Part shown: piece after piece, positions 4,876-58,063 of the stretch
Layout: the number at the start of each line of letters is the position of its first letter
Numbering within the stretch: the stretch's first letter is position 1
Made by a program: the position numbers and the translations under genes
Notes under the pieces: model-generated
Databases searched by the model: none
Seen by the model: the letters and a program-made list of their open reading frames with translations, nothing else
What the model was told of the DNA's origin: nothing
Source: Marmoricola sp. URHB0036
GTDB lineage: Bacteria > Actinomycetota > Actinomycetes > Propionibacteriales > Nocardioidaceae
Direction of reading: 5' to 3'
Length of the DNA stretch: 64,000 nt
NCBI RefSeq assembly: GCF_000426045.1
Contig: NZ_KE384490.1
Location: forward strand, 1-64,000

Positions 4876-4921
4876 ACGCACCCAGCCGACAGGACCCGCG
4901 TCCGAGGATGAAAGGTTGATC

Positions 4922-11365: not shown

Positions 11366-13018
<1,653 letters not shown>

Positions 13019-13048: not shown

Positions 13049-13071
13049 ATCAAACGATCAAGTCAGTTGAC
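13049..13071. promoter_or_regulatory. Operator 5 of the shared dyad
   Basis: Reads ATCAAACGATC, A, AGTCAGTTGAC, one of the best matches. It is central in the divergent promoter region of the acyl-CoA ligase and monooxygenase genes, so it could control both. Confidence 0.8.
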
Positions 13072-15143: not shown

Positions 15144-15166
15144 ATCATCCGATCAAGTCATTCGAT
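15144..15166. promoter_or_regulatory. Operator 6 of the shared dyad (main operon)
   Basis: Reads ATCATCCGATC, A, AGTCATTCGAT. It ends 21 bp before the first gene of the eight-gene main operon. Confidence 0.78.
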
Positions 15167-15799: not shown

Positions 15800-15800
15800 G

Positions 15801-22458: not shown

Positions 22459-24701
22459 GCGCGGTTGCGGAGGTCGGTCAGGTCATCTCGAGCGTGGAGC
22501 TCCGGGGGGACTACACCCGGCGGGCACTCGAGGCACTCGACCTGGCCGCCGCCGCGACCGGCGGCACGGCGGGCTCGGGGCCTGGCGGCCTCCTCCGTGT
22601 GCTCCTCAAGCAGGAGAGAACGATCACGGGCCCGGTGTTCGCGGAGCTCGGCACGGATCTAGTTGCGCTGCACGCGGCGTTGAGCGCGTCAGCAGAGACC
22701 GACGGCTTGTCGCTGAGCTCAGCGCTGCGTGCCTCCGAGCACGAGGCGAAGCAGCTGGGCGACGCGTACGTGTCGGTCGAGCATCTGTTGGTCGCGTTGG
22801 CCGGATACCGCGATGGCGTGGGAGAGATCCTCGGGTCGTTCGGTATTGACCGGCGATCGATGCTCGACGCTGTCTTGCGGGTTCGCGGGCCCGTGAAAGT
22901 GGACGACGCCGAGCCCGAGCTGACCTATCTCGACCGCCAGTGGCGCCCGGAGCCGGTCTCCGCCCAGCTCCGCCGATACAGCCGCGACCTGACCGAGCTG
23001 GCCTTCCGGGGCAAGCTGGACCCCGTGCTCGGCAGGGATGCCGAGATCGAGCGCGTGGTCCAGGTGCTGGGCCGCCGCCGCAAGAACAACCCCGTCTTGA
23101 TCGGTGACCCCGGTGTCGGAAAGACCGCGATCGCGGAGGGACTCGCCCGTCGGATTGTGGCCGGCGACGTGCCCGCGGGCCTTCGCAACCAGCGGCTGGT
23201 CGCGCTCGACGTAGGTGGACTCGTTGCGGGCGCGAGCTACCGCGGTGAGTTCGAGGACAGGATCAAGGCGATCCTGACCGACGTCGGCGATGCGCAGGGC
23301 GGGATCGTCCTGTTCATCGACGAGCTCCACACCATCGTCGGTGCCGGCGCCGCCGAGGGAGCCGTCGACGCCGGCAACCTCCTCAAGCCGATGCTGGCGC
23401 GTGGTGAGCTCCGAACTCTGGGCGCGACCACTCTCGACGAGTACCGCAGGTACGTCGAGAAGGACGCCGCGCTCGAGCGCAGGTTCCAGCCGATCCATGT
23501 CGACGAGCCATCGGCCGCCAGTGCCGTCGAGATGCTGCAGGGACTGCGTTCCGGCTATGAGGATCACCACGGCGTACGCCTCACCGATGCTGCACTCGTC
23601 TCCGCCGTGTCGCTCAGCAAGCGTTACATCCCCGACCGGTTCCTGCCCGACAAGGCGATCGATCTCATCGACGAAGCGGGATCACAGCTGAGGATCAAGC
23701 TGGACAGACGGGCCGACATCGACGTGGATGCAGGCGTCGTCGACGATGACGACATCGCCAGTGTCGTCGCTGCGTGGACCGGCATTCCCGTGACGCGGTT
23801 GCAGGAGGCGGAGCTCGAGAAGCTCGCGACCATGGAGGATCGCCTCGGCGAGCACGTCGTCGGACAGGCAGCCGCCATCGCCCGTGTGTCCGCCGCCTTG
23901 CGCAACGCGCGAGCCGGCCTTGCCGACCCGCTGCGACCGCTGGCCTCGCTGCTGCTCTGTGGCCCGTCGGGGGTGGGCAAGACCCACCTGGCCCATGTTC
24001 TCGCCGACTTCATGTTCGGCAGTGACGACGCCCTGGTACAGCTCGACATGTCGGAGTACTCCGAGCGGCAGGCCGTTGCCCGTCTGATCGGCGCGCCGCC
24101 GGGTTACGTCGGATATGAGGAGGGTGGCCAGCTCACCGAAGCCGTACGCCGCAGACCGTACTCGGTCGTGCTCCTCGACGAGATCGAGCAGGCGCACCCG
24201 GATGTGCACGCGTTGCTGCGTCAAGTGATGGACCAGGGGTCTCTCGCCGACAGCCAGGGACGAATGGTCAGCTTCCGCAACGTCGTGCTCGCCATGACGT
24301 CGAGCCTCGTCGACCCTGCAACTGTCGCCCAGACGTTCCGGGCTGACTTCGTCACCCGACTGGACGACGTCGTTCCTCTCCAGCCGCTGGCAGAGACCGA
24401 CGTCGAGCGGCTTGTCGGCATGCAGGTCGAGTCGCTCGCGGCGCGCCTTGCTGATCGCGGGGTCGCCCTGCGGGTGACCAACGAGGCACGGGCCCACGTT
24501 GCGCATCTCGGTTATGACGAGGACCACGGCGCGCGTCTCCTGACGCGTGTCTTCCAGCAGCAGGCAACCACCGCAGTCTCGCGGAGCGTCCTGTCCGGCG
24601 ACGTCGCCCGCGGCGACACCGTCGTCGTGGATGTTGCGGACGGAGAGCTCGTCACGTCCATCGTCCCGTCGTACCCCCCGCACGAAGAGACGCACTCATG
24701 A
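22455..24701 (+). CDS. Clp/Hsp100 AAA+ unfoldase without ClpP-binding loop
   Basis: 748-residue double-ring ATPase. Clp N-domain about 1-145 ([11 protein letters not shown] repeat). First AAA domain: Walker A GDPGVGKT 217-224, pore loop ASYRGEFE, Walker B VLFIDE 285-290. Second AAA domain: Walker A GPSGVGKT 503-510, pore loop GYVGYEEGG, Walker B VVLLDE 571-576, sensor-2 GAR near 692. There is almost no middle domain after [13 protein letters not shown], unlike ClpB or ClpC. Between sensor 1 (MTS 614-616) and [11 protein letters not shown] only about 11 residues remain, so the usual insertion with a VGF/IGL ClpP loop is absent. It should remodel proteins rather than feed ClpP. It overlaps both neighbours in the operon, which is unusual company for a chaperone. 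Confidence 0.93.
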
Positions 24702-25564
24702 CGCAAGGCGACGTAGCGGTACTTGGTCTCGGCCCCATGGGCGCGGCCCTCGCCGCGCTGTTCGTCAACCAAGGTCTGGCGACCAAGGTCTGGAACCGGA
24801 CCAGTGAGAAGGCGGCACCCCTCGTGGCGGCCGGCGCAGAGCTGGCGGCGGACCCGGCCGCTGCTGTGAGCGACGTGCCGCTGGCGATGGTCTGTCTCGA
24901 CCGATACAACCATGTTCGGGAGGTGCTCGATCAGGCCAACCTCACGGGATGCACGGTTGTCAACGTCACGTGGGGCACGCCTGACGAGGCTCGAACCATG
25001 AGCCGGTGGGTGCAGGAGCGCGGCGGCCTGTATCTGGACGGGAACATCTACGTCTACCCGGAGGGCCTGGGGCCCGATTTCGAGTGCTTGTCGTACGCCG
25101 GCGAACGCTCGGTCTTCGACGCACACGCGGACGTCCTCTCTACCCTCGCCCTTCCGAAGTACGACGGGGCGGACCCGGCCCTCCCCAACATCCTCGGCTC
25201 GGCTGGGGGGATCGCCCATCACATTGAGGTCGGCGCGTTCTACGAGGCCGCGGCCTACGCGGCGCATTACGGGGTCAGTCCCGCCACCTTCCTGGAGTTT
25301 CACGAACGGCTGGGTGGGCCCCTCACCTCCCATGCCCGTCACGTTGCCGTCGACCACCTGGAGAAAGGGGACTTCGCCACCGACCAGGCTGCCTTGCGCA
25401 CCCACTTCGACTCGATGCTGGTGAACCGAGCGGACATGCAGCGCATCGGCCAGCCCGCGCCGATGTTGGGGGCGTTCGTCGATCTCCTTGCGACGGTGGC
25501 CGACGAGAAGGGCCATCTGGCCTTGGCGGCGGCGTGCCAGGACTTCCGGCGTCCTCAGGGCTAG
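24698..25564 (+). CDS. Imine-reductase-like NADP-dependent oxidoreductase
   Basis: 288 residues, typical length. N-terminal Rossmann site VAVLGLGPMGAALAALFVNQG, then KVWNRTSEKA, the NADPH-phosphate selective motif of imine reductases (WNR...K), followed by the all-helical domain that forms the dimer. The family reduces cyclic or linear imines, and some members perform reductive amination. The catalytic Asp or Tyr position cannot be settled by eye. The start overlaps the Clp gene (ATGA), so it closes the main operon. It could protect or recycle an imine made by the amine oxidase. Confidence 0.88.
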   Translation: MTQGDVAVLGLGPMGAALAALFVNQGLATKVWNRTSEKAAPLVAAGAELAADPAAAVSDVPLAMVCLDRYNHVREVLDQANLTGCTVVNVTWGTPDEARTMSRWVQERGGLYLDGNIYVYPEGLGPDFECLSYAGERSVFDAHADVLSTLALPKYDGADPALPNILGSAGGIAHHIEVGAFYEAAAYAAHYGVSPATFLEFHERLGGPLTSHARHVAVDHLEKGDFATDQAALRTHFDSMLVNRADMQRIGQPAPMLGAFVDLLATVADEKGHLALAAACQDFRRPQG

Positions 25565-25830: not shown

Positions 25831-25853
25831 TTCAAATGACTTAGTCGAATGAA
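25831..25853. promoter_or_regulatory. Operator 7 of the shared dyad (TetR autoregulation)
   Basis: Reads TTCAAATGACT, T, AGTCGAATGAA, the most symmetric copy: outer TTCA/TGAA and inner GACT/AGTC pair. It ends 9 bp before the regulator's start codon. Confidence 0.82.
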
Positions 25854-25862
25854 AGAGTAGTG

Positions 25863-26444
25863 ATGGCGCGCGTTCCCACGGAGCTCCGGCGACAGCAGCT
25901 CATCGAAGCTGCGATGACGGTGATCGCTCGCGAGGGCGTCGATGGTGCAACCACACGGAAGATCGCCGACGAGGCCCAGGCCCCGTTGGCGACGTTGCAC
26001 TACTGCTTCCACAACAAGGAGAACCTGTTATGGGCAGTGTTCGAGCATCTGGCCAAGCTCGTCCGCGACGACCTTGCACGGACATCAGCCCCTGACCCAG
26101 CCGCGACCGTTCTCGTCACCCACTTGGTGCGGGAGACCGTCCAGTGGGCGATCGAGAATCCGGCCCCCAACCGGGCCCAGATCGAGATCTGGTCGTGGGC
26201 AAGACGCAATGACCCGGAGTTCGCGTCGCGCATCTACGACATGTTCATCCAGACCTGGAAGGAGTGTCTGCGGCAGGTGCTGGCCCCGCTTCCCGAGGAG
26301 CACCTCGAGACCTTGACGCGGGTCTTCGTGGCGGTGATCGACGGCCTGTGCATGCAGCTGATCACTCACGGCGATGATCTGGCGGTCCTCCGCGAGGCCG
26401 AGACCGCGCGCGAGATGCTGATGGCGTACGTCGGCTCCCCGTAG
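25863..26444 (+). CDS. TetR-family regulator A
   Basis: 193 residues. N-terminal DNA-binding domain RRQQLIEAAMTVIAREGVDGATTRKIADEAQAPLATLHYCFHNKENLL, then an all-helical ligand domain ending QLITHGDDLAVLREAETAREML. It is closely similar to regulator B at 31943 across the recognition helix (APLATLHYCF), so both probably bind the same operator. Operator 7 lies on its promoter, suggesting autorepression. ATG 25863 or GTG 25860 could start it. No other gene follows on this strand. Confidence 0.93.
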   Translation: MARVPTELRRQQLIEAAMTVIAREGVDGATTRKIADEAQAPLATLHYCFHNKENLLWAVFEHLAKLVRDDLARTSAPDPAATVLVTHLVRETVQWAIENPAPNRAQIEIWSWARRNDPEFASRIYDMFIQTWKECLRQVLAPLPEEHLETLTRVFVAVIDGLCMQLITHGDDLAVLREAETAREMLMAYVGSP

Positions 26445-26692: not shown

Positions 26693-27658
26693 TCATATGC
26701 GCTGATCCGTGACCAGGCCGGTTTGGAAGGCGTCGCGGAGCCTTCGGCAGGCGTCGTTCACTGCCGTTCTAGCGGTGGTGAACGTCTCGACATCAGTCAA
26801 GAACCCGTGGAAGACGCCTCGATACCGCTCACGCGTCACGAGCACACCCTCCTCCGCGAGGCGGTCGGCATAGGCCTCGCCGTCGTCGCGGAGCGGATCG
26901 ACCTCGGCCGTGATCACATGGGCGGGCGCCAGTCCGCTGAGACTCTCTGCGCGCATCGGGGCGGCGAGCACGTCCGGAGCGACGCCGGCCTCGCCGACGT
27001 ACTGATGCCAGAACCAGCGCGCGTCCTCGGCGCCGAGCAGCGGCGCGTCGGCGAACTCGCTCCACGACGGTCGCTGGAACGAATCGTCGACAGCCGGGTA
27101 TGCCAGAAGCTGCAGGACCGGTTGGGAAAGGCTGCGGTCGCGCAGGTCGAGGCACAGTGCCGCGGCAAGACCGCCGCCGGCAGAGTCGCCGGCGACCGCG
27201 ATGCGTCGTGGGTCGACGCCCAGGTCGGCGGCACTCGTGGTAAGCCACGCGTGCACGGCGCGTACGTCGTCCAGAGCGGCGGGATAAGGGTGCTCGGGCG
27301 CGAGGCGGTAGTCCACCGAGAACACCGCGCACCTGGCCCCGGCGGCGATTAGTCGACACAGTTCGTCGACGCCGTCGAGGCTGCCCACCGTGAAGCCACC
27401 TCCGTGGACGTACATCACGGCCGGCGACCCCGTGCGTTCGGAGGGTCGGTACTCGCGCACCCGTACCGAGGGCACGCCCACGCGGTGATCGCGCACGGTC
27501 GCCATCACAGTGCTGCGCGAAGGAGGCAGGGGAGCCGTGAAGTCGCGGACGCCCTGGAGACCCAGCGTGTGCAGCGGGCCGGGCAACAGATCGGCCAGCT
27601 GCTGAGCCACCTGGCGCGCCTCGTCGTCGAGCAGTGAGTGCCACAACGGCTCCGTCAT
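26693..27658 (-). CDS. Alpha/beta hydrolase, HSL-type carboxylesterase
   Basis: 321-residue esterase of the hormone-sensitive-lipase group. Oxyanion-hole motif YVHGGGFTVGS, nucleophile elbow VAGDSAGGGLAAAL, Asp in ITAEVDPLRDDGEAYADRL, and His in GVFHGF. It cleaves esters of short-chain acids or alcohols. The ATG at 27658 is chosen; the frame stays open upstream only through the divergent gene. Operator 8 lies 55 bp upstream and is shared with the dioxygenase gene on the plus strand. It might hydrolyse the ester made by the Baeyer-Villiger-type monooxygenase, an inference from chemistry only. Confidence 0.92.
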   Translation of the reverse strand: MTEPLWHSLLDDEARQVAQQLADLLPGPLHTLGLQGVRDFTAPLPPSRSTVMATVRDHRVGVPSVRVREYRPSERTGSPAVMYVHGGGFTVGSLDGVDELCRLIAAGARCAVFSVDYRLAPEHPYPAALDDVRAVHAWLTTSAADLGVDPRRIAVAGDSAGGGLAAALCLDLRDRSLSQPVLQLLAYPAVDDSFQRPSWSEFADAPLLGAEDARWFWHQYVGEAGVAPDVLAAPMRAESLSGLAPAHVITAEVDPLRDDGEAYADRLAEEGVLVTRERYRGVFHGFLTDVETFTTARTAVNDACRRLRDAFQTGLVTDQRI

Positions 27659-27712: not shown

Positions 27713-27735
27713 ATCAAATGATACAGTCGTTTGAA
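27713..27735. promoter_or_regulatory. Operator 8 of the shared dyad
   Basis: Reads ATCAAATGATA, C, AGTCGTTTGAA. It lies between the divergent esterase and dioxygenase genes, 29 bp before the dioxygenase ATG. Confidence 0.78.
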
Positions 27736-27764: not shown

Positions 27765-28637
27765 ATGGCCGTATCCACGCAGCCCCAGTCCCTGCGATCC
27801 GTGCCTCGGGACACCTCGATCGAGGAGATCCTCGCGATCGTGGCGAGCGACGGTGGGGTCATCCTCAAGGACTTCCTCAGTCGCGACCAGATCGACCGCT
27901 TCAACGCAGAGGTCGAGTCGGCAATGGAGGTTCTCCGGCCCGGATCCACCCACGAGAACGAGATGATCGCGGCGTTCCACGGCAGCAAGACCAAGCGCCT
28001 GACCAATCTGGTGACGCTGAGCCCGACGTTCCGCAACGAGATCATCGACCACGACCTCGTGCACAGCCTGTGCGACGCGACCTTCTTGGAGGAGTCGGGC
28101 AGCTATTGGATGACGACAGCGCAGGTGATCGAGATCGGGCCCGGCAACGACGCCCAGATCCTGCACCGCGACCTCGAGAACTGGTATCCCTTCGTCACCC
28201 TCGGCAAGAACGGTCCCGAGGCCATCTTGAACTTCCTGATCGCGTTCACCGACTTCACCGAGGAGAACGGCGCTACCCGAGTCATCCCAGGCAGCAACCA
28301 CTGGGACGACTTCGAGGACCGTGGCGCCCCGCAGGACACCATCCCCGCCGTTATGGACGCCGGCGACGCCCTCTTCTTCAGTGGCAAGACCGTCCACGGT
28401 GGCGGCGCCAACCGGACCGAGAACGAGTACCGCCGGGCCGTCGCTTTCGCGCTCAACCCGGGCTTCCTGACCGGCGAGGAGGCCTACCCCTTCCTCGTGG
28501 ACCTCGAGCTCGCCAAGAAGCTGTCGCCACGAGTCCAGCGCATGCTCGGCTTCCGGTCGCAGTACCCGACCGGCTCAGCCGGTCTGTGGCAGGTGGACTA
28601 CGCCGAGCTCGGCGACTACCTCGGTCTCGACGGCTGA
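27765..28637 (+). CDS. Phytanoyl-CoA dioxygenase (PhyH) family Fe(II)/2-oxoglutarate oxygenase, copy 1
   Basis: 290 residues. Iron site: His and Asp in ILHRDLENW (HxD), distal His in KTVHGGGANRTENEYRR with the 2-oxoglutarate-binding Arg after it. The family hydroxylates an unactivated carbon using O2 and 2-oxoglutarate; ectoine hydroxylase and several amine/amino-acid hydroxylases belong here. AGGGAG precedes ATG 27765. It is followed at 18 bp by a class III aminotransferase and then by a second family member, so the three are probably one operon under operator 8. Confidence 0.9.
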   Translation: MAVSTQPQSLRSVPRDTSIEEILAIVASDGGVILKDFLSRDQIDRFNAEVESAMEVLRPGSTHENEMIAAFHGSKTKRLTNLVTLSPTFRNEIIDHDLVHSLCDATFLEESGSYWMTTAQVIEIGPGNDAQILHRDLENWYPFVTLGKNGPEAILNFLIAFTDFTEENGATRVIPGSNHWDDFEDRGAPQDTIPAVMDAGDALFFSGKTVHGGGANRTENEYRRAVAFALNPGFLTGEEAYPFLVDLELAKKLSPRVQRMLGFRSQYPTGSAGLWQVDYAELGDYLGLDG

Positions 28638-28655
28638 GGAAGCGAAGGATTCGAC

Positions 28656-29927
28656 GTGGCACTCGCGAGCTCCCAGGCCGCCTTCGAGCGGACCAGACGG
28701 AGTGTCGGCGGGGGAGTCGGCTCAGGCTTGCGTGCCGCCATGCAGCCCCATCCACTCTTCGTCCGCGAATCGCGCGGTGCGCATGTGTGGGACCTCGACG
28801 GCGACCGGTACATCGATTACGTGATGGCGTGGGGGCCACTGGTCCTCGGCCACGGCGATCCTCGCATTACCAAAGCCGTCGCGGAGGTCGCGACCCGGAT
28901 GCAGGTGGTCGGCACTGGCCACGAGCTGGAGTACCTCGCGGCCGAGGCCGTGCTGGACGCCGTACCTCATGGCGAGCGGCTGCTGTGGAGCAACACCGGG
29001 ACCGAGGCCGTGCAGGTGGCGCTGCGCCTCGCGCGCGGCGCGACCGGCCGCCGGCGCATCCTCAAGTTCGCGCGGAGCTACCACGGCTGGTACGACTCGG
29101 TGTACGCCGGTCTCGGGGAGTCGGACAGCGGCCGGCAGGCCGTTCCCGCCAGCAAGGGGCAGAGCCCGTCGGGGCTCGAGGAGTTGATCGTCGCTCGGTT
29201 CAACGACACCGTGATGGCCGAGCAGCTGATTGGGGACGTCGAGCGCGACATTGCGGCGGTTCTCGTCGACCCGATCCTCAGCAACGGCGGAGTGGAAGCC
29301 CCCAAGCCGGGCTTCCTGTCCGCGCTGCGTACCGCGTGCGACCGGCACGGCGTCGTGCTCATCTTCGACGAGGTGATCGCCGGGTTCCGGATCGCACGTG
29401 GCGGTGCGGCCGAGAGGTATGCCGTCACGCCGGACCTGTCCGTGTTCGGGAAGGCGATGGCCGGAGGATTCACACAGAGTGCTGTCGTCGGCCGAGCTGA
29501 CCTCGTTGACCAGGTGACCTCCGGCGTGGTCCACGCCGGCACCTTCAACGCCAATCCGATTGCGCTGGCCGCCGTCGAGGCGACCATGCGCGCGCTGGCC
29601 GGGCCGGGGGTCTACACCCAGCTCGAGGAGATCTCCGCCGATTTCGAGCGTGCCGTCGGCGCCGCGCTCGCGTCCGTCCCCGACAGCGGCAGCCTCAACC
29701 GCGTCGGCTCGCTGCTGCAGTACGTGCCGCCGGGCGGTAGGACCGGACTCCACGGAACCGGTGGCCCTTGGGCCGCGATCCTCGAGGGGATGGTGCGACG
29801 CGGCGTGCTCTTCATGCCCTCAGGGAAGGTCTTCCTCTCCACCACGCACACCACCGACGACGTCGCGGCAACCGCCGAGGCGCTCCTGGAGGTGCTCGTT
29901 CAGATGCGCACCCTCCAACCACACTGA
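28656..29927 (+). CDS. Class III aminotransferase (glutamate-1-semialdehyde mutase-like)
   Basis: 423 residues, PLP enzyme of fold type I. VWDLDGDRYIDYVMAWGPLVLGHGDP at the N-terminal side, SNTGTEAVQVALRLAR phosphate-binding loop, FARSYHGWYDS, DEVIAGFR, and the PLP lysine in VFGKAMAGGF. Motifs follow the GSA-aminomutase/beta-amino-acid aminotransferase group. GTG start; GAAGCGAAGGA lies in front of it. It sits between two dioxygenases, so an oxygenated amine or beta-amino acid is a plausible substrate. Confidence 0.92.
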   Translation: MALASSQAAFERTRRSVGGGVGSGLRAAMQPHPLFVRESRGAHVWDLDGDRYIDYVMAWGPLVLGHGDPRITKAVAEVATRMQVVGTGHELEYLAAEAVLDAVPHGERLLWSNTGTEAVQVALRLARGATGRRRILKFARSYHGWYDSVYAGLGESDSGRQAVPASKGQSPSGLEELIVARFNDTVMAEQLIGDVERDIAAVLVDPILSNGGVEAPKPGFLSALRTACDRHGVVLIFDEVIAGFRIARGGAAERYAVTPDLSVFGKAMAGGFTQSAVVGRADLVDQVTSGVVHAGTFNANPIALAAVEATMRALAGPGVYTQLEEISADFERAVGAALASVPDSGSLNRVGSLLQYVPPGGRTGLHGTGGPWAAILEGMVRRGVLFMPSGKVFLSTTHTTDDVAATAEALLEVLVQMRTLQPH

Positions 29928-29941
29928 AGAAAGGACGTGCC

Positions 29942-30850
29942 ATGAGCACGCTGACAACCCTGGACCCCACCGCAAGCATCGAGGAAGCGATCGCCGTCGT
30001 AGAGCGCGACGGCGGCGTCATCATCCGCGACTTCTTCGACGCCAACGTCCTCAAGGAGCTGCGCTCCGACATCGACGCCGCCATGGCAAGCACACCGTGG
30101 GGCCAGGACGATTTCTCCGGTCACCACACCAAACGGCTCTACGGCGTCTTCCAGCACACCCCACACGCGGCCACCGCTGTGCGGCACCCGCACTACGCCG
30201 GCATCGCGAAGCACTTTCTCGAGATTTCCAAGCCGGTGTACGTCGGAGATGACCTGATCGAGCTCGCCCCCAGCTACCAGGTCGGCGTCAGCTCGATCAT
30301 CGACATCCACCCGGGCGAAGGCGCCCAGTCCCTGCACCGCGACGACACGGTCTGGCAGTGGCGGCACCCCGAGGGGTATCGCCAGGCCCGCGTGCAGATC
30401 ATGGTCGCGGTCACGGACTTCACCGCAGAGAACGGCGGCACCATGGTCGTGCCGGGCAGCCACAAGTGGGACGACAACCGCGGCCCGCACGTCGACGAGG
30501 CCGTGCCGACGGTGATGACCGCCGGTTCGGCCTTGATCTGGGTCGGTGGCACGTTTCACGGCGGCGGCACGAACACCTCGGACAGCAACCGGATCGGCCT
30601 GACGATCGGCCTCGACCTCGGCTACCTGCGCCAGGAAGAAAACGCCTACCTGACGTACTCGACCGACGTCATGAAGACGTTCGACGAGGACATCCAGCAG
30701 CTGCTCGGGTGGTCGGTCTGCCCGCCGGGCACCGGCTTCGTCGACTACCAGGGCACCATGGCCGACCCGATCTTCCTCCTCAAGGACGGCGAGGAGGTTC
30801 GCAACTCCTACGCCGACTTCAACGCCAGTCCCGAGCCGCAGAGCGTTTGA
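29942..30850 (+). CDS. PhyH-family Fe(II)/2-oxoglutarate oxygenase, copy 2
   Basis: 302 residues, related to copy 1: the same opening (IEEAIAVVERDGGVIIRDFF), iron ligands in SLHRDDTVW, and GTFHGGGTNTSDSNRIG with the distal His and Arg. The region between differs enough that the two are old paralogues and may hydroxylate different positions. GAAAGGACGTGCC precedes the ATG. Its stop overlaps the start of the amine-dehydrogenase-like gene (TGATG). Confidence 0.9.
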   Translation: MSTLTTLDPTASIEEAIAVVERDGGVIIRDFFDANVLKELRSDIDAAMASTPWGQDDFSGHHTKRLYGVFQHTPHAATAVRHPHYAGIAKHFLEISKPVYVGDDLIELAPSYQVGVSSIIDIHPGEGAQSLHRDDTVWQWRHPEGYRQARVQIMVAVTDFTAENGGTMVVPGSHKWDDNRGPHVDEAVPTVMTAGSALIWVGGTFHGGGTNTSDSNRIGLTIGLDLGYLRQEENAYLTYSTDVMKTFDEDIQQLLGWSVCPPGTGFVDYQGTMADPIFLLKDGEEVRNSYADFNASPEPQSV

Positions 30851-31872
30851 TGCGGCCCACCGACGTGGTGATCGTCGGGCTGGGAGCCACCGGCCTGGCG
30901 ATCACCGAAGCGCTCGCGTCGCGGGTTGACTGCCGTCTCGTCGGCGCAGCTGACATCCAGCCGCACATCGCGGGCACTTCGCTGTCGTCCGTGGTGCCCG
31001 GGGCGCCGTCGGTGGCGGTCGTGGCCTCGCTCGAGGAGCTGCCCGCCGCCGACGTCGCTGTCGTGGCGACTTCGTCGTGGGTCGAGAGCATCGAGCCCAC
31101 ACTGATCGCGCTTCTGAGCAAGGGCATGAATGTGGTGTCGATCTGCGAGGAGCTGCGCGACCCCGGTCTCAGCCACCCCGACGTCGTCGAGCGGCTAGAT
31201 CGAGTTGCGAGGTTCAACGGCGTCACGGTACTCGGCACCGGATGCAACCCGGGCATGTTGATGGACACGCTTCCCATCGTGCTGAGCGGGTTGACGACCC
31301 GCGTCCAATCGATCGCCATCCGGCGAACGGCTGACATGAGTCGCTACGGCGCCATCCTGGCGAAGTTCGGCCTCGGCCTGTCCCCGGACGAGTTCCTCGT
31401 GCGTAGGGAGGAGGGTCGGGTGATGGGACACGTCGGTTTCGCCCAGAGCATCGCGGCAATCGCCCGCGGCCTGGAATGGACCCTCGACGACATCGTGGTG
31501 GAAGCGGTCGAGCCTGACATCGTCGCCACTGAGGAGCGCAAGGGTGCGCACTTGCTCATCCCTCGCGGCACGGTCGCCTGCGTCGTCCACCGCGCCCGCG
31601 GGGTCAGGTCGGGAATCCCAGTGGTAGAGCTCGCCACGCGGTTCGGGATCTTCGACTCGAGCGACGATGTCGAAACCGGCGACACCCTGACGATCGCGGG
31701 GAGGGAGCAGACGATCGAGGTGCGCGCCGCCGGGGGCTATGAGAGCTTCCTGTCGACGGTGGCGATGGCCGCGAACTCGGTGGACGCGGTTGCCGATGCG
31801 GAGCCCGGCTTCCGCACCCTGCTCGAGCTCCCGGTGTCCGCGATTGCAAGCAAGGGCGCCCGGATGATCTGA
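30850..31872 (+). CDS. Dihydrodipicolinate-reductase-like / 2,4-diaminopentanoate-dehydrogenase-like enzyme
   Basis: 340-residue NAD(P)-dependent oxidoreductase. N-terminal Rossmann site VVIVGLGATGLAITEALASR, then AADVAVVATSSWVESIEP and GTGCNPGMLMDTLP, which are typical for the group around 2,4-diaminopentanoate dehydrogenase and other amine dehydrogenases. Would deaminate an amine oxidatively, or reduce an imine. It overlaps the second dioxygenase gene by one base and ends the operon; operator 9 and regulator B follow. Family assignment is good; substrate unknown. Confidence 0.85.
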   Translation: MRPTDVVIVGLGATGLAITEALASRVDCRLVGAADIQPHIAGTSLSSVVPGAPSVAVVASLEELPAADVAVVATSSWVESIEPTLIALLSKGMNVVSICEELRDPGLSHPDVVERLDRVARFNGVTVLGTGCNPGMLMDTLPIVLSGLTTRVQSIAIRRTADMSRYGAILAKFGLGLSPDEFLVRREEGRVMGHVGFAQSIAAIARGLEWTLDDIVVEAVEPDIVATEERKGAHLLIPRGTVACVVHRARGVRSGIPVVELATRFGIFDSSDDVETGDTLTIAGREQTIEVRAAGGYESFLSTVAMAANSVDAVADAEPGFRTLLELPVSAIASKGARMI

Positions 31873-31907: not shown

Positions 31908-31930
31908 TTCAAATGACTAAGTCGATCTCC
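31908..31930. promoter_or_regulatory. Operator 9 of the shared dyad (second TetR)
   Basis: Reads TTCAAATGACT, A, AGTCGATCTCC. The left half and inner dyad are perfect, the outer right arm is lost. It ends 12 bp before the GTG of regulator B and overlaps the ribosome-site region. Confidence 0.75.
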
Positions 31931-31942
31931 GTTGGAGGAGCC

Positions 31943-32551
31943 GTGGCACACGTCCCTACCGATGTCCGACGCCAGCAGTTCATCGATGCTGCCGTGACCG
32001 TCATCGCGCGCGTCGGTGTCGACGGCGCGACTACGCGTCGGATCGCCGAGGAGGCGGGGGCACCGCTCGCTACGCTCCACTACTGCTTCCAAACCAAGGA
32101 GAACCTGCTCTGGGCCGTCTTCGAGCAGATCGCGGACCTGATGCGCCCCGACCCTGCGGAAGGCGATGTACGGGCGAATGCGAAGGGTCAGACCGTGTCT
32201 TCGATCGCCACCTCGCTGCTGACTGAGGCCATCCAGTGGGCCATCGCCCGCCCTGCCGAGAACCGCACGCAGATCGAGATCTGGCTCTGGGCCGAGCGCA
32301 ACGACCCTGAGCTCGCCGTCAAGCTCTACGGCTTGTACATCGACTTGTCGAAAGATCTTCTCCGGGCCGCGAAGAACCCGCTCCCGGATGACCAGCTCGA
32401 GACGGTCACCCGCGTTATCGTCTCGATCGCCGACGGATTGTGCATGCAACTGATCACCCACGGTGACGAGAAGATGATCCTTCGCGAGCTCGCCACTGCC
32501 TCGGCGATGCTCGATGCCTATCTCGGGCGCCGTTCGCGGCGCATCGCTTGA
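31943..32551 (+). CDS. TetR-family regulator B
   Basis: 202 residues. The DNA-binding domain (RRQQFIDAAVTVIARVGVD, GATTRRIAEEAGAPLATLHYCFQ) is nearly the same as in regulator A, and the ligand domain also resembles it (ENRTQIEIWLWAERNDPELA against NRAQIEIWSWARRNDPEFA). GTG 31943 is chosen because it has TTGGAGGAG in front and aligns with the start of regulator A; an ATG at 31913 lies inside the operator. Probably an autorepressor recognising the same 23-bp sites, perhaps answering to another ligand. Confidence 0.92.
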   Translation: MAHVPTDVRRQQFIDAAVTVIARVGVDGATTRRIAEEAGAPLATLHYCFQTKENLLWAVFEQIADLMRPDPAEGDVRANAKGQTVSSIATSLLTEAIQWAIARPAENRTQIEIWLWAERNDPELAVKLYGLYIDLSKDLLRAAKNPLPDDQLETVTRVIVSIADGLCMQLITHGDEKMILRELATASAMLDAYLGRRSRRIA

Positions 32552-32646: not shown

Positions 32647-32669
32647 TCATCTGATCTAGTCATTTACTC
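32647..32669. promoter_or_regulatory. Operator 10 of the shared dyad
   Basis: Reads ATCATCTGATC, T, AGTCATTTACT. Together with operator 11, 60 bp further (six helical turns centre to centre), it lies in the promoter region of the ABC transporter. Confidence 0.72.
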
Positions 32670-32729: not shown

Positions 32730-32803
32730 AGCACGCTAGGAACTGCCGCACCCAGGTGCTCCAGATGCCTCGCGAGACGCTGTCGAGCAGGCCAGGAGAA
32801 CTC

Positions 32804-33955
32804 ATGAAGAAGCGCATACCCGGGCAATGGAGCGCGATCGCGGCGGCGGCGTTGCTGGTAACCACGGTGTCCGCGTGCGGCGGGTCCGGCACCGGTAGCT
32901 CCGGTGCTGAGGCCAGCAGCGGAGACACGGCGCGTTACAAGGACGCGTTGAATGCCTGGTACAAGGGCACCTACAAGGAGCCTGAGGGCCCGGCGGTTCA
33001 GGCCCCGAAGGGAAAGGATGTCTGGCTCGTCTCTACCGGCATGGGCATCGAGTACTCCGTGCGCGTAGCGAAGGCAGCGAAGCAGGCGGCCACCGATCTC
33101 GGTTGGAACTTCCACGTCTTCGACGCGAAGTTCGACCCGAACCAGATGCTGACCGGCGTGCAGCAGGCCGTCGTCGCCCACGCCAGCGGCATCATCGTTT
33201 CGAACATCGACTGCGCCACGGTCAAGAACGCGGCACAGCAGGCGAAGGCGGCCGGCATCCCGATCATCGGCATCGAGTCCGCCGATTGCAGTCCGAGCGT
33301 GTACTCGCACGTTGTCAGCTACGCGGGCAAGGCGTCCCTTCAGCACTGGCTGCGCGACTTCGGCAAGGCGCAGGCGACGTGGGTGATCGCGAAGACCAAC
33401 GGTCAGGCCAAGGTCGTGCTCAACACGGAGACTGACACGGCGAGCACCCTCGGCACGACCGTGGGGATCAAGGAGCAGCTCAAGCAGTGCTCGACCTGCA
33501 AGATCCTCGAGGACGCGACGTGGGTGTCGTCGGACTATGGGCCAGGACTGCAGACCAAGATCCAACAGGCGATGGTGAAGCACCCTGATGCGAACTCGTT
33601 CATCCCGAGCTACGACTCGGTGATGACCCAGAGTGGCGGCGCTCAGGCGTTGAAGTCCACTGGTCGGATGTCCCAACTCGCGATCGCCGGTGGTGAGGGT
33701 AGTTCTGCAGGCATCGCGCAGATCCGCGGCGGCGACGGCATGCAGATGTGTGCCGGCGAGTCCGGTGAGTGGGAGACCTACTCCGCCTTCGACGCCCTGG
33801 TGCGTTCGTTCCTCAAGCGTGACACGTCCGAGGTCGACACCGGAAATGGCATCCAGGTCTGCGACAAGGCTCACAACATGCCGCCGACGGGCAAGGCCTA
33901 CACACCACCAGTCGACTTCGTCTCCGCCTACCGCAAGCTGTGGGGTCTCTCCTGA
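32804..33955 (+). CDS. ABC transporter substrate-binding lipoprotein (sugar type)
   Basis: 383 residues. Lipoprotein signal: KKR, a hydrophobic stretch, then the lipobox VSAC with the acylated Cys near residue 22. The mature part matches the periplasmic-binding-protein-like group (RbsB/XylF type): GIIVSNIDCATVKNAAQQAKAAGIPIIGIES. Four extra cysteines (SADCSPS, LKQCSTCK) are uncommon and might form a disulfide. AGGAGA precedes the ATG. It is first in a three-gene transporter unit. The family also imports non-sugars such as autoinducer-2 and nucleosides, so substrate is open. Confidence 0.92.
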   Translation: MKKRIPGQWSAIAAAALLVTTVSACGGSGTGSSGAEASSGDTARYKDALNAWYKGTYKEPEGPAVQAPKGKDVWLVSTGMGIEYSVRVAKAAKQAATDLGWNFHVFDAKFDPNQMLTGVQQAVVAHASGIIVSNIDCATVKNAAQQAKAAGIPIIGIESADCSPSVYSHVVSYAGKASLQHWLRDFGKAQATWVIAKTNGQAKVVLNTETDTASTLGTTVGIKEQLKQCSTCKILEDATWVSSDYGPGLQTKIQQAMVKHPDANSFIPSYDSVMTQSGGAQALKSTGRMSQLAIAGGEGSSAGIAQIRGGDGMQMCAGESGEWETYSAFDALVRSFLKRDTSEVDTGNGIQVCDKAHNMPPTGKAYTPPVDFVSAYRKLWGLS

Positions 33956-33997
33956 GGCTCCAGCCACCGGCCGCACTCGGATGAAATGGGAGTTCCC

Positions 33998-35533
33998 ATG
34001 CGCACGCAGCTTCCTGGTTCAGCGCTCGCTATGGTCGGCGCCTGCAAGACGTTCGGCGCGAACAAGGCGGTCGACGACGTCTCGTTCGAGTTGGCACCGG
34101 GACGGGTGCACGCCCTGCTTGGTGGAAACGGGTCGGGCAAGTCGACACTGATCAAGCTCCTCGCAGGTGTGGAGCGCGCAGACGCGGGCCGGGTCGAGAT
34201 CGCAGGGCGCGTCACGCAGCTCGCGGAACTCACCCCGGCTCGCGCTGGCGCCATGGGCCTGCGATTCGTGCACCAGCAGCGGTCGACGTTCCCCGAGCTC
34301 ACCGTCGCGGAGAACCTCGCGATCGGCGGTTCCGGCTTTCCTCTCGGCTCGGGCGGCAGGATCCGCTGGCGGGAAGCGAGGCGTCGCGCGGAGCATGCAC
34401 TGGAGCGGTTCGGCATCGAGGTGCACCCCGATCAGCTCCTCGGCGAACTGGGGCCGGCGCGTCAGGCAATGGTCGCGATCGCGCGGGCGCTGCAGTCCCA
34501 GGGCGAAGGCGAAGGCGTGCTCATCCTCGACGAGCCGACGGTCTCGCTGCCCGACGCCGAGGTGCGGCTCCTTCTCGACGCGGTACGACGCCACGCCGAC
34601 CGTGGTCAGACCGTGGTGCTCGTCACGCACCGGCTCGAGGAGGTCTTCGCTGTGGCCGACAATGCCATCCTGCTGCGCAACGGCCGGTTGGTCGACGAGG
34701 TCTCGCCGCAATCGATCACCCGCGCCGACCTGATCGAGCTGGTCATCGGTCGTCCGGTGGAGGAGGTCGCCCCGACCGGCGGAGCCGGCGGCGGGCCAGC
34801 CGTGCTCGAGGTGCATGCGCTGCAGGCTGGCCCTGTGGGCCCGGTCGACCTCACCCTCCACCGGGGCGAGGTGGTAGGCATCGCCGGTCTCGTCGGGTCG
34901 GGTCGCTCGAGCCTGCTCAAGGCATTGTTCGGCGTCCTGCCCGCCGAAGCGGGTGAGGTGCGACTGGACGGCCAACCGCTTGAGCTCTCGAGCCCGCGTC
35001 GTGCGATGCGAGCCGGATTCGCGCTCGTACCCGAGAGCCGTGCGGAGGATGCAGCCTTCCCGGACCTGACCCTCACGGAGAACCTGTCGGTGAGCGTGCT
35101 CCCGGACTACTTTCGTGGTGGGTTGATGCGTGGGCGGCGCGAGCGCCGGGACGCGAACGGACTGCTCACGACTTATGCGATCAAGGCGGAGGCCGTCGAG
35201 GACCCGCTCGACTCCCTCTCCGGCGGCAACCAACAGAAGGCGGTCGTCGCCCGCTGGCTGCGGCGTGAACCCCGGGTCGTCCTGCTGGACGAACCTACCC
35301 AGGGCGTTGACGTCGGCGCACGCGCGGAGATCTACGGGCTGATCAAGCGCGCGGTGGACACGGGCTCAGTCGCCTTGGTCGCCTCTTCCGACAGTGAGGA
35401 GCTCGCAGCGATCTGTGACCGCGTGCTCGTGCTGCGCCGTGGGCGCATCGTCGGCGAGGTTCGCCGCGACCAGATGACCAGCAACCGGATCGAGCGCCTG
35501 GCGCACGGTGAGGCAGAGGAAGTGGCGGTATGA
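33998..35533 (+). CDS. Sugar-type ABC transporter ATPase (two nucleotide-binding domains)
   Basis: 511 residues with the RbsA/MglA arrangement. First domain: Walker A GGNGSGKST, Walker B LILDEPTVSLP, and a signature changed to LGPARQ instead of LSxxx. Second domain: Walker A-like GLVGSGRSS without the usual lysine (normal for this family), intact signature LSGGNQQK, Walker B LLDEPTQGVDVGA. The first-domain signature is more degenerate than usual. Start at ATG 33998 after TGGGAG; ATG 33986 is an alternative. It overlaps the permease gene (ATGA). Confidence 0.92.
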   Translation: MRTQLPGSALAMVGACKTFGANKAVDDVSFELAPGRVHALLGGNGSGKSTLIKLLAGVERADAGRVEIAGRVTQLAELTPARAGAMGLRFVHQQRSTFPELTVAENLAIGGSGFPLGSGGRIRWREARRRAEHALERFGIEVHPDQLLGELGPARQAMVAIARALQSQGEGEGVLILDEPTVSLPDAEVRLLLDAVRRHADRGQTVVLVTHRLEEVFAVADNAILLRNGRLVDEVSPQSITRADLIELVIGRPVEEVAPTGGAGGGPAVLEVHALQAGPVGPVDLTLHRGEVVGIAGLVGSGRSSLLKALFGVLPAEAGEVRLDGQPLELSSPRRAMRAGFALVPESRAEDAAFPDLTLTENLSVSVLPDYFRGGLMRGRRERRDANGLLTTYAIKAEAVEDPLDSLSGGNQQKAVVARWLRREPRVVLLDEPTQGVDVGARAEIYGLIKRAVDTGSVALVASSDSEELAAICDRVLVLRRGRIVGEVRRDQMTSNRIERLAHGEAEEVAV

Positions 35534-36573
35534 GTTCGTTGTCCAACAACACAGAGGTGGGCGCCGGTGGCGCTCCGCAGGCCGCGCCTGTCGTCGTGCC
35601 AGCGCGAAAGCGTCGACTTCGCAAGCCGATCCGCGCCTACTTGGAGGCCCATGCGTTCCTCGGGCTCTTGGTCCTGGCGCTCGTCTTCTTCAGCGTATGG
35701 CCCAAGACATCGGCGGTCTTCCCGACGACGGCGAACCTGCAGATCCTGTTCGGATCCAGCACCGTGGCCGCGATCGCAGCGCTCGGCTCGCTGATTCCGC
35801 TGGTGTGCAACGAGTGGGACCTGTCGATCGGCGCGACCGCGGGCCTGAGCTCTGTGTTCGTGGCCGTCGCGCTCACCAACGGCACCTCCCCGTTCCTTGC
35901 GATCGCGCTCGGCATCGGGATCGGGCTGGCGGTCGGCATCGTCAATGCTGTCCTCGTGACCCGCCTCAACGTCAACGCCGTGATCACTACGCTGGGCATG
36001 TCGATCATCCTCGCCGGCATCATCTCCCTCAAGACCGGCGGTGTCACCGTCGCCGGCTCGATCCCGGTGGCCGTCACCAACTTCGGCACGCTCTCGTGGT
36101 TCGGGATCCCACGCTCGGTGGTCGCGCTGGCCGTCGTGGCGGCCATCGCCTACTACGTGCTCGACTACACGCCGTATGGCCGCTATCTCTACGCGCTCGG
36201 GTCGAACCGCTCCGCAGCCCGGCTGACCGGCATCCGGATCAAGTTGGTCGTCGGCACCACGTTCGTGATCGCCGGTGCGCTCTGCGGCGCGGCTGGGGTT
36301 CTGCAGGTCGCTCGGGCCGGCGGCGCGAACCCACACCTGGCCGACAGCATCCTGCTGCCCGCCCTCGCTGCCGCGTTCCTCAGTGCGGCGGCGGTACGGC
36401 CTGGTCGCTACAACGTCGGCGGCGTGCTGGTCTCGGTCTACTTCCTCGCGGTCCTCAACAACGGACTCAACTTGGCCGGCGCGCCAGAGTACGTCTCGAA
36501 CTTCGTCAACGGCGGAGCGCTCATCGTCGGTGTCGGCGTCGCTGCTCGCCTCGGCGGCCGTCGCGAGGCCTGA
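35530..36573 (+). CDS. Sugar-type ABC transporter permease
   Basis: 347 residues, about nine to ten membrane helices after a 40-residue basic N-terminal tail (RKRRLRKPIRAY). The EWDLSIGATAGLSSVF and GRYLYALGSNRSAARLTGI segments are the hallmark of RbsC/XylH-type permeases (the latter is the ATPase-coupling loop). It forms the channel for the two preceding genes; a single permease gene suggests a homodimer. A strong terminator hairpin follows seven bases after the stop. Confidence 0.93.
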   Translation: MSSLSNNTEVGAGGAPQAAPVVVPARKRRLRKPIRAYLEAHAFLGLLVLALVFFSVWPKTSAVFPTTANLQILFGSSTVAAIAALGSLIPLVCNEWDLSIGATAGLSSVFVAVALTNGTSPFLAIALGIGIGLAVGIVNAVLVTRLNVNAVITTLGMSIILAGIISLKTGGVTVAGSIPVAVTNFGTLSWFGIPRSVVALAVVAAIAYYVLDYTPYGRYLYALGSNRSAARLTGIRIKLVVGTTFVIAGALCGAAGVLQVARAGGANPHLADSILLPALAAAFLSAAAVRPGRYNVGGVLVSVYFLAVLNNGLNLAGAPEYVSNFVNGGALIVGVGVAARLGGRREA

Positions 36574-36632: not shown

Positions 36633-37541
36633 TCAGGAGTCGAGCGTGGCGACGACCGCGATGTCCTGGTCGCCCAGGCCGGCGTCGACACCGCGCCGGA
36701 GCACTTCGGAGGTGGCCTGGATCATCGGGGCCTTCCCGTGCTGGTTCAGGCCCGCCGCGAACGCGGCTGCGGCGTCGGCGTAGACGGCGAGCGTGGCCTG
36801 ATCGGTGGCGAACTCCTGGTCGCGCAGGCGGTCCAGGATCAGCTTCAGCTGGCCGTCCATGACCGATAGTGAGTAGGACGTGAGGTCGGACAGGATCTCG
36901 TGCGACACCCCGAACGCGGTGGTGAACCGGGCCGCTTCGACGAACGCCGTCAGCGTCGTGATGTAGAAGGCCCCTGTCATCGCGCAGTCGATGGCGTTGG
37001 CGGCGCCGAAGTCGGTTCCCACGTGCAGGGAGCCTCCGGCGAGGCCGAGGACAGCGTCCTGATGGGCCTTCCACACGTCTTCGTCTCCGGCGACGAGGAA
37101 GCGGGCCTCGGCGGTGCCGAGGTGCTCGGGGTAGGCCGCGATCGCGGCGTCGAGGTAGCGGACGTCCTTCGCGTGCGCCCACTCGCCGAGGGCGCGCCCG
37201 TCCTCGGGCGTGCCGCTGGTCGTGTTCAGGACGGTGGTGGCGCCGAGCTCGGCGGAGTCGACGACGTCGAGCAGTGCGCGTACGTCCTCGGTGGAGCTGA
37301 TGCACAGGATGGCCAGCGGGGTGCTCGTCAGCGCCTCTCGGGCAGAGGACACCGCGACGGCACCGTCGCGAGCGAGCGCCTCGGCGCGTTCGGGCGTTCG
37401 GTTCCAGGCGGTGACGCTCCATCCCTTGGACAAGAAGGCGCGCACCATGGCCGAGCCCATGTTGCCGCAGCCGAGCACGGCGACGGCACGCGTTGCGGCG
37501 TCCGGAGAGGTCGAAGCGCCGCGATCAAATGACCCAGTCAT
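36633..37541 (-). CDS. Second imine-reductase-like oxidoreductase
   Basis: 302 residues, same family as the gene at 24698. Rossmann site VAVLGCGNMGSAMVRAFLSKG, cofactor motif AWNRTPERAE, then SGTPEDGRALGEWA and a helical C-terminal domain (DCAMTGAFYITTLTAFVEA). The pair differ strongly, so they are not a recent duplication. Start at 37541 lies inside operator 12, suggesting a leaderless message or an unseen internal start. It reads away from the third TetR gene. Confidence 0.87.
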   Translation of the reverse strand: MTGSFDRGASTSPDAATRAVAVLGCGNMGSAMVRAFLSKGWSVTAWNRTPERAEALARDGAVAVSSAREALTSTPLAILCISSTEDVRALLDVVDSAELGATTVLNTTSGTPEDGRALGEWAHAKDVRYLDAAIAAYPEHLGTAEARFLVAGDEDVWKAHQDAVLGLAGGSLHVGTDFGAANAIDCAMTGAFYITTLTAFVEAARFTTAFGVSHEILSDLTSYSLSVMDGQLKLILDRLRDQEFATDQATLAVYADAAAAFAAGLNQHGKAPMIQATSEVLRRGVDAGLGDQDIAVVATLDS

Positions 37542-37546
37542 CTGAC
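37524..37546. promoter_or_regulatory. Operator 12 of the shared dyad
   Basis: Reads ATCAAATGACC, C, AGTCATCTGAC. It covers the start codon of the second imine reductase gene. It is the last copy; none is seen to the right. Confidence 0.72.
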
Positions 37547-38346: not shown

Positions 38347-38365
38347 GTAACCAAGGATGTGGCTC

Positions 38366-58033: not shown

Positions 58034-58063
58034 CACACCTACGAGCTCGATCAGAGCGGTGGC

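Follow-up and report, generated by a model that had tools for sequence, protein, structure and literature searches.

The genes for two PhyH-family Fe(II)/2-oxoglutarate oxygenases (PhyH1 and PhyH2), a class III aminotransferase (AT) and a putative amine dehydrogenase (ORD) form, as predicted from their arrangement, a single tight operon at positions 27765-31872 of the window, the stretch of 64,000 nucleotides from Marmoricola sp. URHB0036 that was analysed here. This operon is probably part of a TetR-controlled regulon for the catabolism of an amine, with a mechanism that we infer below. The genes share one strand, with 18 bases between PhyH1 and AT, 14 bases between AT and PhyH2 and a 1-base overlap of PhyH2 and ORD, and they appear to constitute one transcription unit of a regulon that extends from about 4.1 to 37.5 kb (~35 kb; Table 1). 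What the sequence itself establishes are gene families, active-site residues, a shared predicted operator and the conservation of operator and partners in other genomes. Amine catabolism as the type of pathway has good support; the substrate and the order of steps are proposals. The original prediction had named the same four genes at the same coordinates, and the Pfam domains (PhyH twice, Aminotran_3, DAP_DH_C) bear out its family names. It had also proposed hydroxylation of an amino compound followed by deamination. The two reactions, in whichever order, fit the genomic context, but the idea that the four genes make up a complete, closed pathway had to be abandoned, because the operator and the neighbours tie them to the larger set.

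Table 1. Predicted genes and operator sites of the proposed regulon and its surroundings (window coordinates)
Feature	Position	Strand	Remarks
Operator before C4 membrane protein/PuuB-like gene pair	4132..4150	.	matrix
C4, conserved membrane protein without Pfam family	4171..4875	+	homologues in 17/43 loci
PuuB/aminophosphonate-oxidase-like FAD amine oxidoreductase (DAO family)	4916..6283	+	
APC-type amino acid/amine permease	9826..11286	+	
Acyl-CoA ligase	11366..13018	-	
Operator between divergent CoA ligase and BVMO	13051..13069	.	pattern + matrix
BVMO, Baeyer-Villiger-type flavin monooxygenase	13135..14586	+	motifs GGTW...YPG...D and FxGxxxHxxxWP in sequence
Operator before C20-GS-ADH-PuuD-ALDH operon	15146..15164	.	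matrix; same place in L036, L067
C20, small conserved protein preceding GS	15188..15799	+	
GS-like ligase, gamma-glutamyl-amine synthetase type	15768..17171	+	
ADH, Zn alcohol dehydrogenase	17168..18280	+	
PuuD-like gamma-glutamyl hydrolase	18277..19068	+	
ALDH, PuuC-like aldehyde dehydrogenase	19065..20579	+	
Flavin amine oxidase	21055..22458	+	closest solved relative 6-hydroxy-L-nicotine oxidase
IRED1, imine-reductase-like	24698..25564	+	R-imine reductase 3zgy among best PDB matches
Operator before TetR1	25833..25851	.	pattern + matrix
TetR1, BetI-like regulator	25860..26444	+	
ABH, hormone-sensitive-lipase-type esterase	26693..27658	-	
Operator, 0 mismatches, between divergent ABH and PhyH1	27715..27733	.	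pattern + matrix
PhyH1, PhyH-family Fe(II)/2-oxoglutarate oxygenase	27765..28637	+	Pfam PhyH E 2e-34
AT, class III PLP aminotransferase	28656..29927	+	GTG start; Pfam Aminotran_3 E 1e-64
PhyH2, second PhyH-family oxygenase	29942..30850	+	Pfam PhyH E 3e-35
ORD, 2,4-diaminopentanoate-dehydrogenase/native amine dehydrogenase family	30850..31872	+	DAP_DH_C (PF19328) E 1e-36
Weak operator-like site before TetR2	31910..31928	.	matrix score 8.3, within chance range
TetR2, TetR1 paralogue	31943..32551	+	start probably GTG 31943
Operator before ABC transporter genes	32648..32666	.	matrix; second one at 32708
Sugar-type ABC transporter: binding protein, ATPase, permease	32798..36573	+	
IRED2, imine-reductase/reductive-aminase-like, start uncertain	36633..37541	-	NAD_binding_2; RedAm-like_C 29.1/27 bits
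Operator at IRED2 start	37526..37544	.	pattern + matrix
Thiolase, SDR, APH-type kinase, acyl-CoA dehydrogenase: beta-oxidation-like tail	38357..42583	+	

PhyH1 and PhyH2 are about 35% identical and represent the only PhyH family matches in the whole 4.83-Mb genome. The metal site and the 2-oxoglutarate Arg are intact in 53/53 aligned rows for PhyH1 (H134-x-D136...H211...R223) and in 7/7 rows, equal to 5 distinct loci, for PhyH2 (H132-x-D134...H206...R217), so the HxD...H site on which the original prediction depended is kept in every aligned relative. As in the alignments of AT and ORD, the rows are those that passed fixed thresholds of identity and length, and overlapping loci contribute some of them. 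The predicted structure of PhyH1 (mean pLDDT 70.7) matches 8zyb, PrhA and SptF with a TM of ~0.7, which points to the double-stranded beta-helix of PhyH-type oxygenases. AT can be assigned to the class III aminotransferases by its Pfam domain and its PLP lysine, intact in 28/28 aligned rows. It is related to both HemL and GntE, and stays under the equivalog cut-off for the former, a glutamate-1-semialdehyde aminomutase (327.6/527.3 bits), as well as for the latter, the guanitoxin transaminase (288/525 bits). In a similar way, the domain and the catalytic Glu (the aligned EE, intact in 13/13 aligned rows) place ORD in the DAP_DH_C/native amine dehydrogenase family, and an Arg and a His line up with R161 and H197 of AmDH4. 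Given the roles of these residues in AmDH4-type enzymes, the combination would fit a gamma-amino acid as the substrate. A function as 2,4-diaminopentanoate dehydrogenase (Ord) was rejected on the basis of a score under the equivalog cut-off (247.4/400 bits), and no ornithine-fermentation neighbours were seen. A family-wide study of native amine dehydrogenases (PMC11164908) reports that gene neighbourhoods pointed to no clear function for its G1 group.

The closest solved relatives of PhyH1 are EasH, DhiD, PrhA and AusE, and the PDB matches of the two oxygenases are mostly biosynthetic enzymes, SwnH1 and SwnH2 included. Together with the sub-threshold GntE match of AT and the finding that PhyH2-like genes on two Streptomyces plasmids sit in NRPS/PKS-like clusters, this could be taken to indicate that the operon makes a small natural product from an amino acid, like the fungal swainsonine or cyanobacterial guanitoxin clusters. 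We consider such a biosynthetic role quite improbable: the annotated genes of the window include neither an NRPS nor a PKS, the partners are Puu-like genes and genes for uptake, CoA ligation and beta-oxidation, and the plasmid genes that the regulon resembles are of a catabolic type.

The connection between the operon and its surroundings, one of the supports of the amine-catabolic reading, is carried by a palindromic operator core, CAAAYGA-N5-TCRTTTG, that precedes PhyH1 and further genes of the window; such a shared predicted operator would be expected of a TetR regulon. None of 100 shuffled controls reached the 4 operator sites of the window. With at most one mismatch the core occurs at 3 places in the 4.83 Mb, all inside the window (reversed-pattern control: 0), and with at most two mismatches 4 of the 7 places in the genome lie inside it (control: 1 place). 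The search pattern, derived from the best site of the window itself, also served to locate foreign sites; it recovered 19 at no more than two mismatches in 52 related loci (1.08 Mb), versus 0 for the control; 18 of the 19 are upstream of homologues of window genes, versus 14% of random positions. A matrix made from 18 foreign sites alone scored 8 window sites at 24 or higher, where the maximum in 40 random sequences was 16.7 and scores under ~17 are in the range of random sequence. At three mismatches the window contains 8 sites versus 2.75 expected, and 2 of 100 shuffles reach 8; given that this count is near chance, the extra operator sites rest on the matrix score. Upstream of the amine oxidase-Clp-IRED1 genes and of the beta-oxidation tail no operator was found by the matrix.

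Considering the gene content, the amine would be taken up via the APC or the ABC transporter, after which the GS-like ligase can cap it to yield a gamma-glutamyl conjugate. PhyH1 and/or PhyH2 would then introduce a hydroxyl group at an unactivated carbon, either of the amine or of the conjugate, and the alcohol may be converted by ADH and ALDH to the acid. The PuuD-like hydrolase would take the glutamate off, and AT and ORD would strip the nitrogen from the amino acid to give an oxo acid. In cases where deamination yields a ketone, this could be cleaved by the BVMO, which carries the motifs of Baeyer-Villiger-type enzymes, and the esterase ABH, and the ligase would pass the product into beta-oxidation. 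The capping step need not be general: GS was present in just 9/43 PhyH1 loci, which implies that gamma-glutamylation is no obligate partner of PhyH1.

The Puu pathway for putrescine is not known to include an oxygenase, BVMO, ORD or IRED. The island shares with it a GS-like ligase, a PuuB-like oxidase, a PuuC-like ALDH, a PuuD-like hydrolase and a permease, but its GS-, PuuC- and PuuD-like proteins fall under the curated cut-offs, for gamma-glutamylputrescine synthetase (155.9/650 bits) and PuuD (78.7/266 bits) by far, and the island was therefore not equated with Puu. A likeness to the Ipu isopropylamine pathway of Pseudomonas KIE171 and Arthrobacter aurescens TC1 (PMC6776027) extends from the GS-like gamma-glutamyl-amide ligase and the hydroxylation of a carbon of the conjugate to the amidotransferase-type hydrolase, ADH and ALDH. 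In Ipu, hydroxylation is carried out by a multicomponent P450, whereas for the island two 2-oxoglutarate oxygenases are proposed to stand in for it, and the island adds AT, ORD, BVMO and IRED. No P450 was seen among the regulon genes (a P450 at 51407 falls outside the regulon), which leaves the island without a recognizable counterpart of the P450 system that acts on gamma-glutamyl-isopropylamide in Ipu.

The substrate could also be a cyclic secondary or tertiary amine, for instance a 2-substituted pyrrolidine or piperidine alkaloid, although we regard this as unlikely. In that scheme, oxidation of the carbon beside the nitrogen, by an oxygenase or by the flavin amine oxidase, would be followed by opening of the ring to an amino ketone; gamma-glutamylation would block reclosure, AT/ORD would deaminate, the BVMO would cut the ketone and the imine reductases would handle the cyclic imine. 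The relationship of the amine oxidase to 6-hydroxy-L-nicotine oxidase, an enzyme that acts on a pyrrolidine ring, is in line with this, as are the two genes IRED1 and IRED2, which can be placed in the imine-reductase family by domains and matches and of which one has an operator. Moreover, a Pseudomonas plasmid cluster combines an IRED-like gene and both oxygenases with Lva-type 4-hydroxyacyl-CoA genes, which the tail of the island resembles. Nevertheless, the amine oxidase has no operator upstream in the matrix scan, IRED-like genes are uncommon across the 43 loci (6 contain an IRED2-like gene), and none of these clusters is tied to a known alkaloid substrate. Another thought is that the oxygenases themselves deaminate, by attacking the amine-bearing carbon to give a hemiaminal that falls apart into ketone and ammonia, with AT/ORD serving another step. 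KanJ works in this manner, the chemistry is possible for this oxygenase class, and the BVMO would be supplied with a ketone. However, KanJ does not appear by name in the 42 PDB hits for either oxygenase, and AT and ORD would be redundant as deaminases, which makes this explanation very improbable.

Relatives of the ~35-kb gene set are found in further soil bacteria as well as on a plasmid of Pseudomonas. Within 40 genomes picked for PhyH1, AT was found in 23, ORD in 19 and PhyH2 in just 4, while AT and ORD were found in 0 of the 395 other sampled genomes of the same phylum. The contiguous order PhyH1-AT-PhyH2-ORD was recovered in 0/43 other loci, and in genome G097 all four families are present and scattered. 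Since PhyH1 is at the centre of all 43 loci and Streptomyces contributes 18 of them, they are not independent. The original prediction would have been undercut by the set occurring nowhere else; this is the case for the exact order but not for the gene partnership: the PhyH1-AT-ORD trio is together in 4/43 loci, AT and ORD lie within 15 kb in 12 of the 15 genomes having both, and the PhyH1 + PhyH2 pair is found on two plasmids and in Williamsia. The absence of the exact order elsewhere would suit four chance neighbours from different pathways, but such an origin is hardly credible in view of the gaps (18, 14 and -1 bases), the recurring partnerships and the presence of the same operator upstream of homologues of PhyH1, PhyH2 or ORD elsewhere.

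The amine-catabolic regulon has its most comparable counterparts, as enzyme sets, on plasmid p12939-PER of Pseudomonas aeruginosa and in Streptomyces. The plasmid encodes homologues of PhyH1 (56%), PhyH2 (41%), TetR (38%), BVMO (43%), C4 (36%) and an IRED-like protein (31%), as well as ligase, SDR and ACAD, and carries a 0-mismatch operator before the BVMO. It differs in that AT gives way to two different class III aminotransferases (29% and 22%), no ORD is annotated, and additional genes for outer-membrane uptake as well as an LvaB gene are present. The Streptomyces loci L036 and L067 each combine BVMO, C20, GS, ADH, PuuD, ALDH, PhyH1, ORD and AT within a single stretch and both include a TetR, but PhyH2, the Clp gene and the flavin amine oxidase are unmatched in that stretch.

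Amine dehydrogenases and imine reductases are valued industrial catalysts, and their natural role is, as far as we know, largely unknown. Here, a member of the amine dehydrogenase family shares with imine reductases a proposed regulon whose operator can be read, which should open the inducer, and through it the natural substrate, to experimental identification. If true, the 2-oxoglutarate oxygenase step would extend the known attacks on aliphatic amines. Tentatively, the data could even reflect a widespread, horizontally moving and so far undescribed catabolic regulon of actinobacteria and pseudomonads, in which 2-oxoglutarate oxygenases replace the Ipu-type P450 and native amine dehydrogenases and imine reductases degrade a natural amine that may be cyclic and hydrophobic. 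Searches of the open-access literature turned up no described system that would name the substrate, which is weak evidence of absence. The sole open-access match that joined phytanoyl-CoA dioxygenase, Baeyer-Villiger monooxygenase and degradation was a paper on SAR202 (PMC5395668). As for the small protein C20, the matches of its predicted fold to sterol carrier protein 2 are weak (best E 7.7e-4, TM 0.2-0.3), and a sterol-carrier-like nature was set aside as a lead only.

The four genes, comprising two Fe(II)/2-oxoglutarate oxygenases of the PhyH family (PhyH1 and PhyH2), a class III aminotransferase (AT) and an amine-dehydrogenase-like enzyme (ORD), constitute a genuine operon. Both the position and the family names of the original prediction were borne out, by the gene coordinates (27765-31872) and by the Pfam and NCBIfam placements, respectively. 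PhyH1 and AT are separated by 18 bases and AT and PhyH2 by 14, while PhyH2 and ORD overlap by one base. A whole-genome search of this organism recovered no PhyH matches other than these two. More specific assignments scored below the cut-offs: AT as HemL (327.6 bits, cut-off 527.3) or GntE (288 bits, cut-off 525), and ORD as the 2,4-diaminopentanoate dehydrogenase Ord (247.4 bits, cut-off 400).

Coordinates of the operon genes and of other features discussed
Feature	Position	Strand	Start	Family or description
C4	4171-4875			membrane protein without Pfam family
C20	15188-15799			small protein without Pfam family
Clp ATPase	22455-24701			ClpB/ClpC-like double-AAA
PhyH1	27765-28637		ATG 27765	PhyH family (Pfam, NCBIfam)
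AT	28656-29927			class III aminotransferase (Pfam, NCBIfam)
PhyH2	29942-30850			PhyH family (Pfam, NCBIfam)
ORD	30850-31872			2,4-diaminopentanoate dehydrogenase family (Pfam, NCBIfam)
PD-T7-5-like	45964-47157	-		weak match to anti-phage model
Probable conjugative element	53610-59953			several genes
Tmn-like	60384-63932	-		large P-loop protein

Both oxygenases hold the H-x-D...H site, in keeping with the prediction: together with the downstream Arg it was conserved in 53/53 aligned rows for PhyH1 and in 7/7 (five distinct loci) for PhyH2, as were the lysine of AT (28/28) and the amine-dehydrogenase-type glutamate of ORD (13/13), counting only rows within set identity and length limits, some of them from overlapping loci. 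The predicted PhyH1 model, with a mean pLDDT of 70.7, folds as expected and is matched best by 8zyb, PrhA and SptF. The alignment of ORD with AmDH4 (6g1h/6g1m) spans the 'EE' motif and retains two AmDH4 residues, Arg at position 161 and His at 197, which we take to be carboxylate binders. Conserved Arg and His residues are described for native amine dehydrogenases in section 7 of PMC11164908, and those of ORD and AmDH4 probably correspond to its position numbers.

The palindrome CAAATGATACAGTCGTTTG is located between PhyH1 and ABH, the HSL-type esterase gene. With CAAAYGANNNNNTCRTTTG at up to two mismatches, four sites were found in the window (13051, 25833, 27715 and 37526), where 0.23 were expected and none of 100 shuffles reached four; at three mismatches the count was near chance level. 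Within the whole genome, up to one mismatch gave three places, all inside the window (reversed-pattern control: 0), and up to two gave seven, four of them in the window (control: 1). Among 52 related loci (1.08 Mb), 19 sites were recovered at up to two mismatches and none with the reversed pattern. All but one (L099:13217) are followed within 400 bases by a window-gene homologue, as against 14% of random draws in the same loci (21-gene list), in a sample that is biased because the loci are centred on PhyH1. The operator precedes homologues of PhyH1 (Nocardia, Streptomyces, Mycobacterium, Williamsia, Rhodococcus), PhyH2 (Streptomyces and a Pseudomonas plasmid), ORD (Nocardia), the Baeyer-Villiger-type monooxygenase BVMO (Pseudomonas plasmid; Streptomyces, 28% identity), and C20-GS and TetR (Streptomyces), GS being a glutamine-synthetase-like ligase. 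A matrix made from the 18 gene-linked foreign sites scored at least 24 at eight window sites (27715, 13051, 15146, 37526, 25833, 32648, 4132 and 32708), against a top score of 16.7 over 40 equal-length random sequences, in a test that is not wholly independent because the foreign-site pattern was read from the window. Weaker sites (8183, 27702, 9721, 9318, 9713 and 31910) fell inside the random range. Agreement among the aligned sites extends into their flanks (GATCA/TGATC), bases that are absent from the search pattern. The functional unit is thus not the four-gene pathway originally proposed, a frame that did not hold, but a larger, operator-linked regulon. What can be said most safely of the four genes is that they act in TetR-controlled amine catabolism.

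A second palindrome, of GGTGC-N5-GCACC type, was observed before PhyH1 in six loci (L049, L050, L052, L054, L043 and L046), which have a PucR-like gene adjoining PhyH1. This suggests a second regulator in Mycobacteria and Tsukamurella.

In an even sample of 396 genomes across the phylum, strict matches to PhyH1 were found in two, including this one, and to AT, ORD and PhyH2 in this one only. No PhyH1-grade match occurred in 23 other genomes of the genus, two of which had weak PhyH matches only. Forty genomes represent 40 of the 43 PhyH1 loci (L046 and L067 come from the genomes already represented by L045 and L026, and the metagenome-assembled L063 was omitted as well); they contained AT in 23 (limit 1e-110), ORD in 19 (limit 1e-30; all observed matches 7.1e-72 or better) and PhyH2 in four (limit 1e-40), one of which, at 4e-53, fails the 1e-60 limit of the phylum-wide sample. 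AT and ORD share a contig within 15 kb in 12 of the 15 genomes having both, the others being 28 kb apart, about 390 kb apart and on different contigs. Within 10-kb flanks of the 43 loci, at set identity limits, we found AT in 25, BVMO in 17, C4 in 17, GS in nine, ORD in eight, PhyH2 in one and the PhyH1-AT-ORD trio in four, counts that are not independent events because 18 loci are from Streptomyces.

Contig C8 of Streptomyces flaveolus carries PucR, PuuB-like, ORD, permease, BVMO, alpha/beta hydrolase, flavin amine oxidase, C4, ADH, AT, two CoA ligase, SDR, ACAD, APH kinase, symporter and PhyH1 genes. The Pseudomonas aeruginosa plasmid p12939-PER has homologues of PhyH1 (56%), PhyH2 (41%), C4 (36%), TetR (38%), BVMO (43%), an IRED-like gene (31%), ligase, SDR and ACAD, adjoining an annotated LvaB gene, and on Rhodococcus gordoniae plasmid pDND3A the two oxygenases are accompanied by GS, ADH, ALDH and BVMO-like genes. 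Thus, although the exact four-gene order does not recur, the partner genes do, in distant hosts.

Upstream of the operon lie, in order, C4, a PuuB-like FAD oxidase and an APC permease, then a CoA ligase divergent from BVMO and C20-GS-ADH-PuuD-ALDH; flavin amine oxidase, Clp ATPase, the imine-reductase-like IRED1, TetR1 and the esterase follow. TetR2, a sugar-type ABC transporter, IRED2 and thiolase-SDR-APH-ACAD genes lie downstream, and no operator was found in the window before the last group. The GS-like and PuuD-like neighbours both fell under the cut-offs for members of the putrescine (Puu) pathway. The predicted structure of C20 has a weak likeness to sterol carrier protein 2.

The regulon is probably a new form of gamma-glutamyl amine catabolism, itself already known, and provides a clear experimental handle. 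GS-like ligases of organic amines are treated in part of PMC11335346. In the isopropylamine (Ipu) pathway, according to the relevant part of PMC6776027, isopropylamine is gamma-glutamylated and hydroxylated by a P450 system, after which the amino alcohol is released. By analogy, a PhyH oxygenase would take the role of the P450 system, ADH, ALDH and the PuuD-like hydrolase would form an amino acid, and AT and ORD would remove its nitrogen; a ketone branch would suit BVMO, esterase and ligase. The SDR-ACAD-APH genes are 31-35% identical to their counterparts beside LvaB on the plasmid, a likeness that fits a putative oxo-acid product of ORD. Because the window also encodes a 6-hydroxynicotine-oxidase-like enzyme and the imine reductases IRED1 and IRED2, a cyclic amine as substrate is the strongest rival. 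A biosynthetic role, as might be considered from the PhyH2-like genes in Streptomyces biosynthetic clusters, is less likely, because the partners are transport, CoA-ligase and beta-oxidation genes.

The Clp ATPase overlaps the flavin amine oxidase stop and the IRED1 start, and therefore seems to be translated together with both. The probable conjugative element adjoining the catabolic island includes an ATPase resembling VirB4, a large membrane protein and, judged by eye, a fusion of an M23 peptidase with an endonuclease/phosphatase-like domain. Two further proteins match anti-phage models, PD-T7-5 (E 3e-7) and Tmn (E 6e-30).
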